From positions 1 to 64,000 of the forward strand of contig NC_014634.1 in NCBI RefSeq assembly GCF_000165505.1: a DNA stretch of 64,000 bases. The letters are read 5' to 3'. Below are positions 6,639-47,215 of the stretch, piece by piece (position 1 is the first letter of the stretch; the number at the start of each line of letters is the position of its first letter). The notes below the pieces were generated by a model that worked only from the letters and a program-made list of their open reading frames with translations, had not been told where the DNA came from and searched no databases. The DNA is from Ilyobacter polytropus DSM 2926 (lineage in GTDB: Bacteria; Fusobacteriota; Fusobacteriia; Fusobacteriales; Fusobacteriaceae). Made by a program: the position numbers and the translations under genes.

Positions 6639-6920
6639 TCAAGAGAGTATAATTCCCTCTATGTTTACAACTTCGAATTTTAGTGAAAAGAAAAGATTGG
6701 ACATTTCAGTGCAACCAATACCTTTATTTTTTTTAACATCATCGATATCAATATCTAAAAGATTTCCCTTTTTAAAACTTTGTAATGTGCAATTTCTACA
6801 TTTCTCCGAATTAGGATTGTGGCACCCGTAACCTTTTAATAATAGTTTACTGTTTTTAATTAGGTATAAAATTTTCACCTCACTATTAAAATCTTTTGGA
6901 AAATTAATGTTTAAAACCAT
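6639..6920 (-). CDS. Small Cys-containing protein behind a c-di-GMP riboswitch, unknown function
   Basis: 93 aa with a clear AAAGGAGGT Shine-Dalgarno. It has four Cys, three clustered in GCHNPNSEKCRNCTL (about residues 32-46) and one in GIGCTEM near residue 70, which could bind a metal or Fe-S cluster. No PilZ, GGDEF or EAL motif is visible and I do not recognise the family. The nearest upstream elements on this strand are a terminator and a c-di-GMP-I aptamer (7145-7210), with no gene between, so expression should respond to c-di-GMP. That makes it a candidate output protein of the signalling network. Confidence 0.7.
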   Translation of the reverse strand: MVLNINFPKDFNSEVKILYLIKNSKLLLKGYGCHNPNSEKCRNCTLQSFKKGNLLDIDIDDVKKNKGIGCTEMSNLFFSLKFEVVNIEGIILS

Positions 6921-7121: not shown

Positions 7122-7144
7122 AAAAAATAGAAAAACCCTTTTTT

Positions 7145-7210
7145 CTGCAACTGGCTACCATTTTAAAGGCCCTATAGCTTTGCGTCCTAACGTTTCCATT
7201 AGTTTGCCAA
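7145..7210 (-). promoter_or_regulatory. c-di-GMP-I (GEMM-I) riboswitch upstream of the Cys-containing gene
   Basis: Minus-strand sequence matches the GEMM-I core: GCAAACT, a hairpin capped by a GGAAAC loop, GGACGCAAAGCTATAGGGCC, then GGTAGCCAGTT. The base just before GCAAAC is G, as in typical c-di-GMP binders. It is nearly identical to the copy at 47009-47071. A terminator follows at 7092-7121. Confidence 0.88.
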
Positions 7211-7361
7211 ATAATTCACTTGAAAGATATCTTCTTTGTTTTATATCTTTTCCTTTTTTATAACTACATATTTTAGTAATTTAATTGCACAAAGGGTTTT
7301 TACTGATATTGCAGTCAACATTTCAAAATCGAATTATTTTGAACTTTTGTGCTTTACAAAT

Positions 7362-7469
7362 AAAAAAAGCCAGACACGGTAGATGTCCAGCTTAGAATTT
7401 TGGGGTGGCAGCCATCTTGGGGAGATGGCTGCCGGCTAATACTCTTGTTTGAATTGGAAAAGTTTCGAC
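7362..7469 (-). ncRNA. Candidate small RNA with two hairpins and terminator
   Basis: On the minus strand an extended -10 (TGCTAAAAT; TAAAAT at 7477-7482) with a TTATCA -35 at about 16 bp would start transcription near 7469. Downstream come a GC-rich perfect 10-bp hairpin (GGCAGCCATC and GATGGCTGCC, 7407-7433) and a second hairpin (7368-7392) followed by seven T. No open reading frame is supported. The predicted transcript is about 108 nt. It matches no RNA family I can name. Confidence 0.45.
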
Positions 7470-7976
7470 GTCAATTATTTTAGCATAAAATTATAATGTG
7501 ATAAACCTACCTTTTAGCTATACACTTATTGTATATAATTTTGTGAGTTAAAAAATCTCAATATAATTACAAAACCCCAGGAAATTATACCTGAGGCTTC
7601 GATAAGTGGGAATCTTTTAGGGAAAAAATCATCTTAGAGATTTGAAGACTAAATCATAATTGATTCAATATTAACTTAACATTAAATAGTATTTTTCCTT
7701 TTTTTTAATAACGAATGTAACTATATTTCTCAGGCAAAAAATTTCCATGTAAATTTTTATGTGGATATAAATTCAGCTTTAAACGGTTTTTAACAAATTA
7801 TTGGACAAGAAAAAAGGTTGTTGTTGTGAAATAGTCTCAGTTAGTTTCAGAGGTTCTATAGAGACTATAAAATCTATCTAGAGTAGCTATTGAATGTTAG
7901 ATTGAATGGTTAAATATTATGTATAGGGTATACTTTTTAATAAAAAAATGTTATACTCGTATTTATAAAACTATAT

Positions 7977-8044
7977 TAATAGCAAACCATTGGAAACGAT
8001 GGGACGCAAAGCTATAGGGCCTTTAATGTGGCAGCCAGTTACCA
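7977..8044 (+). promoter_or_regulatory. GEMM-I riboswitch upstream of the HD-GYP gene (A at the specificity position)
   Basis: Core elements in order: AGCAAACCATTGGAAACGAT, then GGGACGCAAAGCTATAGGGC, then GGCAGCCAGTTACC. These match c-di-GMP-I aptamers: GAAA-capped P2, GACGCAAAG, and the tetraloop receptor region. The base before GCAAACC is A, whereas the other two aptamers here have G. In the Vc2 numbering I recall this is position 20, linked to c-di-GMP versus cGAMP choice. A weak terminator-like hairpin follows. Confidence 0.87.
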
Positions 8045-8075
8045 AAGAAGAAAATTCTTTGTCCACTATTTAGAG

Positions 8076-8105
8076 TATGGGTTTCTTGCCATATTTTTTT
8101 TATTT
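8076..8105 (+). terminator. Possible riboswitch terminator
   Basis: TATGG and CCATA arms with a TTTCTT-containing loop, then about nine T. The stem is only 5 bp, so this is weaker than the terminators of the two other riboswitches. Confidence 0.45.
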
Positions 8106-8164
8106 TTTGTGAAGAATTATAATTTAAAAAAATATTGATAACAGGATTTGAAGTAGGTAGAGAG

Positions 8165-9655
8165 ATGAATATAATAAGAAAAGCCTTCGTTTCATTATAT
8201 GTAAAAATTGCATTAGGAATATTAGTGGCAGTAACTTCTGCAATTTTTTTGGTTTCATATCTTCATAATGATTTTATTTTTAATTACATAGATACCACTA
8301 CTGAAAATCAAATTTGTTCTATTTTAGACAGTGCAAATATCTCAAGTTCAATCTTTATTCAAAACGGAGAGTTTAATGACCTTCAGAGAATGGTGGAAAA
8401 GATTGCCTCCCATAACTTCATAAAAGAAGTTAAGGTCTACGATAAAAATAAAAAAATTATAGCTTCAGGTACTGGCTATAAAGGTGATGATAATTCAGGG
8501 AGTAAAATTTTAGACGAGCTACTAAATGGACAAATACTTGAATATAAAAAATCAAACTTTTCTGAAAATGTCTTCGATATGGCTATTCCAATAAATGAGG
8601 TTGGATATAGCAGCATACAAGAAAATGGAATAATTGGAGTCCTTTGCATAAAAGTTGATCTTGGATCTGTAAAAGGCTTTTTTAAACATTTACATTATGA
8701 TTTTCTTAAAACTATTTTTACAATAGGAGCATTATTTTTATCTGGCATTATTAGTTTGTTATCATTTAAATTATTCACTCCAATTTCAAAGCTTTACAAG
8801 GCGGCTCAGGCCATCTCAGAAGGTGATTATAGGCATGTTGTAGATGAATATAGTGAAAGAGAGTTTTATCCTATAATTAAGGGATTCAACAATATGACGG
8901 AAAAAATAAGAACAAGAGACGAAGAATTGAAATCACTTCATAAAAAATTGGAAGATCACAATGAACACCTGGAAACTATTGTAACTGAAAGAACAAGTGA
9001 ATTGAAATTAACGCAAGACATCACAATCAGAAGTCTTGCCAACTTGGCCGAAACTAGAGATAACGAGACAGGAAGTCATATTTTTAGAACTCAGCATTAT
9101 GTAGAGACACTGGCAGAATATCTTAAGGAAAATCCAAAATTTTCAGAAGAACTAATGTCAAAAAATATTGAATTGATGTTCAGATCTGCACCGCTGCACG
9201 ATATTGGAAAAGTAGGAATACCAGATAACATTCTCTTAAAACCCTTTGGTCTCACAAAAGAAGAATTCGAGATAATGAAAAAGCATACTACTTACGGCAA
9301 AGAAACTATTGAAAAATCTGAAAAATTTATTGGAAATAAGTCATTATTGTCTTTTGCTAAGGAGATTGCATTCTCCCACCATGAAAAATGGAACGGTTCA
9401 GGTTATCCAGAAGGTTTGGTTGGAGAAGAGATTCCATTGTCAGCTAGGATTATGGCAATAGCGGACGTATATGATGCATTGGTCAGTCAAAGACCGTATA
9501 AAAAAGCATTCACCCATGATGAGGCAGTTAGAATAATATTAGAGGGAGACGGCAGAACTTCTCCAGAACATTTTGATCCCGACATACTAACTGCATTTTC
9601 TAAAATTCATCATAAGTTCGATGAAATCCATAAAAAACATCCTGATGAAGAGTAA
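8165..9655 (+). CDS. Membrane HAMP/HD-GYP cyclic dinucleotide phosphodiesterase
   Basis: 496 aa from the ATG at 8165, chosen because GGTAGAGAG precedes it. An upstream TTG at 8137 would be in the leader. Domains: membrane helix (about 10-35), extracytoplasmic sensor region (about 36-180), second helix (about 185-205), HAMP (PISKLYKAAQAISEGDY), coiled coil, then HD-GYP. The metal motif HDIGK is near residue 344 and HHEKWNGSGYPEGL near 405; the GYP is intact, with N in place of the common D before G. HD-GYP enzymes hydrolyse c-di-GMP, and some cleave 3',3'-cGAMP. The GEMM-I riboswitch about 120 bases upstream should make expression respond to the messenger. Confidence 0.9.
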   Translation: MNIIRKAFVSLYVKIALGILVAVTSAIFLVSYLHNDFIFNYIDTTTENQICSILDSANISSSIFIQNGEFNDLQRMVEKIASHNFIKEVKVYDKNKKIIASGTGYKGDDNSGSKILDELLNGQILEYKKSNFSENVFDMAIPINEVGYSSIQENGIIGVLCIKVDLGSVKGFFKHLHYDFLKTIFTIGALFLSGIISLLSFKLFTPISKLYKAAQAISEGDYRHVVDEYSEREFYPIIKGFNNMTEKIRTRDEELKSLHKKLEDHNEHLETIVTERTSELKLTQDITIRSLANLAETRDNETGSHIFRTQHYVETLAEYLKENPKFSEELMSKNIELMFRSAPLHDIGKVGIPDNILLKPFGLTKEEFEIMKKHTTYGKETIEKSEKFIGNKSLLSFAKEIAFSHHEKWNGSGYPEGLVGEEIPLSARIMAIADVYDALVSQRPYKKAFTHDEAVRIILEGDGRTSPEHFDPDILTAFSKIHHKFDEIHKKHPDEE

Positions 9656-46037: not shown

Positions 46038-46904
46038 TTAAAGAGCTATACTTATTTTGTCTTTACCACTTTTTTTGGAATCGTACATAGCCTTGTCCGC
46101 TCTATTAATTAATTCTTTCCAATTTTCATTTTTCTGATAAGACACTATTCCTGAACTTATACTAATTTTATTTTCATAAAGGAAATCATTCTTTTTCATT
46201 TTGGTGTTAATTCTTTCAGTTATTTCGAGGGCTTTTTCTGTTGATGTATCTTGATATAATATTATGAATTCATCCCCGCCATATCGGATAGCGTTGTCCG
46301 TCTCTCTTATAGAGCTTTTAATAAGTTTGCCCATAAATTCTAGAACTTCATCTCCTCTTTTATGACCATATTTATCATTTATATTTTTAAAGTTATCAAG
46401 ATCGATAAATGCTATAGATATTTCTTTGTCAAATGCCAATGATTTTTTTATTAAGGTATCCAGATTTAATTCTAAGTAATGTCTATTATATAATCCGGTC
46501 AAATGATCGTGCATACTTTTATCTGATATAGTAGAACGAATCTTTCTTTGATTCATAAAAGATAAAATTGTAACTGTTGATATGGTCATCAAACCTATAG
46601 GCATCAAAATTTTATCCAAATTGGAAATAAAACCTTCCATTTCATATATTTCATCCATCACATTTTGAAATGATCCTGCGTAAAATAGAATAAATCCGAA
46701 TATGATGAATCTATTGAAGTAATTTTTTCCGAGGTCGAACCTCACAAAGTATATCCATATAATAGGTTGGATACATATCAAAAGCTCACTAACAATATCC
46801 CATGAGGTAAAACCCACTAACTTTGGAAATGACATATCTGTGTATGTTAAAATTATTGTTACGATTAAACAAATTAAATATGATACTTTTGTCCTCTTGT
46901 CCAT
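46038..46904 (-). CDS. Membrane diguanylate cyclase (GGDEF)
   Basis: 288 aa. About five membrane helices fill residues 8-125. The GGDEF domain follows: DHLTGLYNRHYLE, AFIDLDNFKNINDKYGHKRGD, and RYGGDEFIILY. The guanine-contact N and D are typical of c-di-GMP makers, so a Hypr (cGAMP-making) type is unlikely. RETD, five residues before GGDEF, is the inhibitory I-site RxxD. AAGGGGT precedes the ATG. A c-di-GMP-I riboswitch with terminator lies about 105 bases upstream, so product feedback is possible at both RNA and protein levels. Confidence 0.92.
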   Translation of the reverse strand: MDKRTKVSYLICLIVTIILTYTDMSFPKLVGFTSWDIVSELLICIQPIIWIYFVRFDLGKNYFNRFIIFGFILFYAGSFQNVMDEIYEMEGFISNLDKILMPIGLMTISTVTILSFMNQRKIRSTISDKSMHDHLTGLYNRHYLELNLDTLIKKSLAFDKEISIAFIDLDNFKNINDKYGHKRGDEVLEFMGKLIKSSIRETDNAIRYGGDEFIILYQDTSTEKALEITERINTKMKKNDFLYENKISISSGIVSYQKNENWKELINRADKAMYDSKKSGKDKISIAL

Positions 46905-46984: not shown

Positions 46985-47008
46985 AAAAATAGAAAAACCT
47001 TTTTTTTT

Positions 47009-47071
47009 GCAACTGGCTGCCATTTTAAAGGCCCTATAGTTTTGCGTCCTAACATTTCCATTAGTTTGCCG
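47009..47071 (-). promoter_or_regulatory. c-di-GMP-I (GEMM-I) riboswitch upstream of the diguanylate cyclase operon
   Basis: Minus-strand core: GGCAAACTAATGGAAATGTT, GGACGCAAAACTATAGGGCC, TGGCAGCCAGTTGC. It is almost identical to the aptamer at 7145-7210, with GACGCAAAA where that copy has GACGCAAAG. The base before GCAAAC is G. A terminator follows at 46955-46984. Confidence 0.85.
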
Positions 47072-47215
47072 AATATTTTTTGATAGTACCACTTTTCGAC
47101 CATATAGGTCAAGTTTTTAATATACTTAACAGAAAGGTTCTACGATAACTTCATAAAAGATGAGAATCAATATAAATTTTTATAAATAAAAAAAAGGAAA
47201 CATTTAAAAGTAGAC

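Follow-up and report, generated by a model that had tools for sequence, protein, structure and literature searches.

An A20 c-di-GMP-I riboswitch ahead of a predicted HD-GYP phosphodiesterase gene in Ilyobacter polytropus is probably a c-di-GMP switch with relaxed specificity

Introduction

An adenine at position 20 (A20, Vc2 numbering) of c-di-GMP-I (GEMM-I) aptamers is commonly taken as a mark of cGAMP sensing. In the GEMM-Ib cGAMP riboswitches of Geobacter (Gs1761 and Gm0970), which target cytochrome and pilus genes, A20 follows AA and U19 and is combined with a C21-G46 pair, A47 and C92. A Geobacter aptamer selective for cGAMP comes to prefer c-di-GMP upon substitution A20G (PMC6456294), and in some contexts A20 can therefore be decisive. 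Position 20 has also been described as less conserved (PMC9049102) and as a selectivity factor, not a hard filter (PMC9262584). The genome of Desulfobacca acetoxidans has one A variant alongside homologous G aptamers, in tandem with an AdoCbl riboswitch; binding measurements showed that it had acquired affinity for cGAMP, with "perhaps a slight weakening" of c-di-GMP binding (PMC9481103). Elsewhere in the pocket, A47 stacks between both ligand bases (PMC9049102); the C92 equivalent, which corresponds to C75 of the cGAMP riboswitch, pairs with the second ligand base.

Here, we compare with these systems an A20 aptamer borne by the plasmid of Ilyobacter polytropus, an anaerobe of the Fusobacteriaceae. 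The replicons of strain DSM 2926 are chromosome I (2,046,464 bases), chromosome II (961,624 bases) and the plasmid (124,226 bases), for a total of 3,132,314 bases (PMC3035301). The window, that is, the whole stretch of DNA analyzed, comprises bases 1-64000 of the plasmid (C3).

Results

The window aptamer is a c-di-GMP-I member with A20

The window aptamer scores above the RF01051 gathering score of 35, with an E-value computed over the whole window (Table 1). It resembles described c-di-GMP-I riboswitches throughout the aptamer, with an intact P2 and P3 in the model alignment and with G21-C46, A47 and C92 retained, as well as in its terminator platform and in the presence of a cyclic dinucleotide turnover gene downstream; it differs in presenting A20 in place of G20. 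G20 is the majority form and does not define the RF01051 structural family, and the window riboswitch is a further member of the known c-di-GMP-I type.

In the RF01051 alignment, the adenine sits just 5' of the G21-C46 and C22-G45 pairs, C46 and A47 being the C and the first A of GCAAA. This register of G21, C46 and A47, together with the equivalence of Cd1 G11 to Vc2 G20 (PMC9262584), identifies it as position 20. An earlier note on this DNA had singled out this A before GCAAACC, where both remaining aptamers in the window have G, and had assigned it to Vc2 position 20; both statements are borne out here. The same note delimited the riboswitch and its gene as 7977-9655, of which the end is right, whereas the start trims six aptamer bases.

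Table 1. Position and supporting evidence of the features annotated in the window
Feature	Position	Strand	Evidence
c-di-GMP-I (GEMM-I, RF01051) aptamer with A20	7971-8046	+	cmscan, 64.2 bits, E 2.9e-10
A20, after U19 (G in most GEMM-I)	7981	+	RF01051 model position 11 in alignment
G21-C22 pairing with G45-C46, c-di-GMP-I type	7982-7983 with 8006-8007	+	Alignment
A47, retained	8008	+	Alignment
C92 equivalent, retained	8042	+	Alignment
Hairpin CAAAGAA-GAAAA-TTCTTTG, 7 bp, directly 3' of aptamer, kept in paralogous leaders	8043-8061	+	RNAfold, leader alignment
Terminator-like hairpin AGTATGG...CCATATT with T-run	8074-8109	+	RNAfold; homologous to terminator-like site in chromosome II leader
Membrane HD-GYP phosphodiesterase (predicted): weak Cache, HAMP, HD-GYP	8165-9655	+	Pfam, PDB matches, alignment
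G20 c-di-GMP-I aptamer, divergent, for comparison	7143-7218	-	cmscan
G20 c-di-GMP-I aptamer ahead of GGDEF gene 46038-46904	47005-47080	-	cmscan; Pfam for GGDEF

A20 and G20 are exchanged among related aptamers

The I. polytropus genome contains six aptamers, with A20 in the window aptamer and in L002 on chromosome II and G20 in the remaining four; the two aptamer flavors that had been suggested for this organism therefore do coexist in it. The L002 ortholog in the sister species G002 (L015), which precedes an HD-GYP gene, has G20. The two leaders are ~90% identical over 370 bases and their aptamers differ at three bases, position 20 included; this pair, unlike the window and chromosome II pair, is clean. 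The sister-species ortholog of L002 (L096:14422-14497, minus strand) exceeds the cut-off for the Rfam variant family RF03167 (c-di-GMP-I-GGC), although it looks like a normal G20/A47/C92 aptamer. In I. polytropus, the gene right after L002 (L095:2742-3400, equal to C2:410241-410900) is an HD-GYP pseudogene when compared with G002, frameshifted and missing several hundred bases from its interior, and the kinase and response-regulator genes downstream of it are intact.

Exchange also occurs in another Fusobacteriaceae genus, where orthologous aptamers ahead of the same fimbrial operons vary between A20 and G20 from species to species. One series of fimbrial aptamers has G20 in G054, G037 and G058 and A20 in G056, and a second has A20 in G056 and G037 and G20 in G058. 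In a single fimbrial cluster of G056 (C1:2669408-2682660), fimbrial-type subunit genes are preceded by four GEMM-I aptamers, of which two have A20 and the others G20.

Position 20 is occupied by G in 117, A in 14 (~10%) and C in 4 of the 135 distinct Fusobacteriaceae aptamers in register, and A20 aptamers were found in at least 120 stretches of GTDB genomes, mostly Firmicutes among the matches listed. Within the Fusobacteriaceae, U19 is present in 13 of the 14 aptamers with A20, as opposed to 51 of the 117 with G20 (uncorrected P = 4e-4). U19 was the only candidate A20 signature beyond position 20 to emerge, and it is not significant after correction for ~260 tests.

A G20-controlled operon on chromosome II is a paralog of the window unit

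Chromosome II carries a paralogous operon in which a GEMM-I aptamer with G20 is followed by a gene for an NMT1/THI5-like substrate-binding protein (SBP) and then by an HD-GYP gene, and the HD-GYP proteins encoded by the two units are 69% identical. The homologous leaders can be aligned from aptamer to terminator, and the SBP gene that separates switch and HD-GYP on chromosome II is absent from the window copy. The same aptamer-SBP-HD-GYP operon, likewise with G20, is present in G002. Phylogenetic inference groups the window HD-GYP as sister to both chromosome II-type proteins (support 99/99), which places the duplication before the split of I. polytropus and G002. A clean point-mutation origin of the window A20 was rejected, as the window and chromosome II copies are also dissimilar at several bases just 5' of this position. 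A DNA search of plasmid records returned short matches only.

With such a history, selection on the aptamer could have been relaxed once the unit was duplicated and its SBP gene lost; the aptamer would then be drifting, A20 having weakened or abolished control. Both A20 aptamers of I. polytropus lie in rearranged units, the window unit without its SBP gene and L002 before an HD-GYP pseudogene, and in the window HD-GYP the HHExxDGxGYP motif reads HHEKWNGSGYP, with the conserved Asp changed to Asn. The rest of the aptamer, the P2 and P3 pairs, the 3' hairpin and the terminator have nevertheless been kept while the proteins diverged to their present identity, and A20 is retained in orthologs of two other species. 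On balance, we consider drift improbable.

The leader contains a terminator-like hairpin

A terminator scan did not list the terminator-like hairpin of the window leader, which is too AU-rich, but did list its chromosome II homolog. Minimum-energy folds and a transcription walk on the leader, used to search for an antiterminator, yielded a possible 7-bp CUAUAUU/AGUAUGG pairing. Conservation of this pairing in both paralogous leaders is not clear, and it was rejected as a clean antiterminator on which to base an ON/OFF call. Between the two divergent riboswitches lies an inverted repeat, GGCAGCCATCT ... AGATGGCTGCC (7412-7442), and the divergent G20 aptamer precedes a 93-aa ORF (6639-6920, minus strand) with a Cys cluster and no Pfam match.

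The downstream protein resembles c-di-GMP phosphodiesterases

The ORF downstream of the window aptamer, with a likely start at ATG 8165 (TTG 8135 is also possible), matches Pfam HD_5 (6.5e-30) and HAMP (6e-8) and, weakly, dCache, in agreement with the HD-GYP gene reported for this position by the earlier note. Aligned with its relatives, it keeps the HD...H...HH...D metal-binding motifs, as HDIGK, KKH, SHHEKWNGSGYP and IADVYD, along with the GYP motif. Its PDB scores are 178 bits for 4r8z (cyclic di-GMP phosphodiesterase), 152 bits for 4mcw (metal dependent phosphohydrolase) and 100 bits for 5z7c (cGAMP-specific V-cGAP3); V-cGAP is thus not its closest relative by sequence, although similarity does not settle the substrate. 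The HD-GYP gene had been put forward in support of cGAMP sensing. This argument is weak, since most HD-GYP proteins are regarded as c-di-GMP phosphodiesterases and this one is more similar to such enzymes than to V-cGAP3. The window HD-GYP probably destroys c-di-GMP.

No cGAMP synthase is recognizable in the genome

Hypr GGDEF enzymes present Ser or Thr at a base-contacting position, Ser348 in GacA (PMC6456294). We fixed the corresponding column by alignment to 6d9m (GmGacA), where the Hypr enzyme reads GHLVGS and I. polytropus GHKRGD. Many canonical GGDEF proteins are encoded by I. polytropus, and all intact-motif GGDEF matches in this species and in G002 have Asp in that column, which is unreadable in some degenerate domains. 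The earlier note had described the window GGDEF domains as looking like normal c-di-GMP makers; the genome search for Hypr-type GGDEF proteins that it had proposed as a check found none.

The Hypr codon pattern NDxxGHxxG[S/T] had no match in I. polytropus, in G002 or in any GEMM-I-bearing relative among 61 genomes, a set that left out five A20-bearing genomes (G037, G038, G039, G042 and G056). Pattern matches elsewhere in the order, as well as four in 30 A20-bearing genomes (mostly Firmicutes), were discarded because they are not GGDEF proteins. As a positive control, a slightly longer pattern was run on 198 Desulfobacterota genomes; it matched 21 of them, and in nearly all cases the matched letters spelled the expected peptide. 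For CD-NTases, no SMODS match above the cut-off was found in the I. polytropus genome.

The window aptamer combines A20 with G21-C46

The Hypr-bearing genomes G156, G194 and G284 contain 14 to 24 aptamers each, by which they appear Geobacter-like (G. sulfurreducens has 17). Their A20 aptamers, 39 in number, have C21-G46 together with U22-G45 in all but one case (38/39) and are nearly all preceded at A20 by [UC]AAU, while 11 of their 14 G20 aptamers have G21-C46. The window aptamer shares AAU-A20 with the Geobacter-like aptamers but has G21-C46, the general form in Fusobacteriaceae aptamers, where Gs1761 and Gm0970 have C21-G46. It further differs from these two riboswitches in targeting an HD-GYP gene and in belonging to a genome with no recognizable cGAMP synthase. 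Seven A20/G21-C46 aptamers do occur in other Hypr-bearing genomes, so that G21-C46 lowers, without excluding, the probability of cGAMP binding.

These comparisons bear on the cGAMP reading raised by the earlier note. If the window RNA were a true cGAMP riboswitch, cGAMP from an unrecognized synthase would bind the A20 pocket and control a cGAMP-degrading HD-GYP. The proposal accords with A20 as a known specificity base (PMC6456294), with the AA-U19 string before A20, shared with the cGAMP aptamers of Geobacter-like type, and with the cleavage of cGAMP by some HD-GYPs (PMC11352751). It is opposed by the lack of any Hypr GGDEF or CD-NTase among the genome matches, by G21-C46 in place of C21-G46, by the interchange of A20 and G20 in orthologous operons and by the closer similarity of the window HD-GYP to c-di-GMP phosphodiesterases, and we judge it quite unlikely. 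A broader claim, that the A20/G21-C46 aptamers scattered among Fusobacteriaceae and Firmicutes, often with U19-A20, are true cGAMP sensors or dual cGAMP/c-di-GMP sensors, strikes us as equally unlikely; if it were true, these bacteria would have to possess a cGAMP synthase that has so far escaped discovery.

Discussion

Taken together, these results suggest that the window RNA is probably a c-di-GMP riboswitch with relaxed specificity, possibly of lower affinity, that would exert feedback on an HD-GYP phosphodiesterase. An ordinary, perhaps less selective, c-di-GMP switch is the most likely reading because no cGAMP-making enzyme was seen and A and G are swapped among relatives, and because, of the two candidate ligands, the genome shows synthases and phosphodiesterases for c-di-GMP alone. 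That its specificity may be relaxed is suggested by the role of position 20 as a selectivity factor (PMC9262584) and by the Desulfobacca A variant (PMC9481103). The paralogy of the window unit to the G20-controlled chromosome II operon also counts in favor of the c-di-GMP reading; the AA-U19-A20 string shared with Geobacter-like A20 aptamers, and the association of U19 with A20 in the Fusobacteriaceae, count against it. The earlier note had offered such a switch as its fallback, and this is the better supported of its two readings.

In the proposed mechanism, c-di-GMP would be the most likely cellular ligand of the A20 aptamer, which would probably also bind cGAMP in the test tube, and A20 may lower affinity for c-di-GMP. 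The ligand state would act on HD-GYP expression via the downstream transcription terminator, and the level of the phosphodiesterase would thereby be tied to that of c-di-GMP in a feedback loop. As a refinement of this c-di-GMP reading, G20 and A20 switches might be kept for different c-di-GMP thresholds in one cell, a view favored by the placement of paralogous HD-GYP genes of a single genome behind a G20 and an A20 aptamer and by mixed flavors inside one fimbrial locus; frequent A/G turnover suggests weak constraint, however, and we advance such affinity tuning tentatively, as a somewhat doubtful addition.

The useful part of these findings is the general lesson on A20. Since A20 and G20 interchange in orthologous riboswitches of bacteria with no recognizable cGAMP synthase, and since these riboswitches lack C21-G46, the second mark of Geobacter-like aptamers, A20 on its own does not identify a cGAMP riboswitch, and caution is warranted in calling cGAMP signaling from it. 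The L002/L015 and window/chromosome II aptamers provide natural A/G pairs in which the effect of this base could be measured in its native setting.

Other c-di-GMP-I variants in the Fusobacteriaceae

The four Fusobacteriaceae aptamers with C20 are L364 (G018), L368 (G050), L369 (G027) and L370 (G053), the last of which also has G at position 92; we know of no C20 flavor of the c-di-GMP-I aptamer in the literature. Five G20 aptamers have U at position 92: L013, L271, L276, L283 and L001, located on the I. polytropus plasmid (C3:122888-122974). In L001, the 5' flank CUCCGAAAAA and the sequence UUUUUGGGAG, which covers the ribosome-binding site, are complementary, suggesting that L001 may act as a translational switch.
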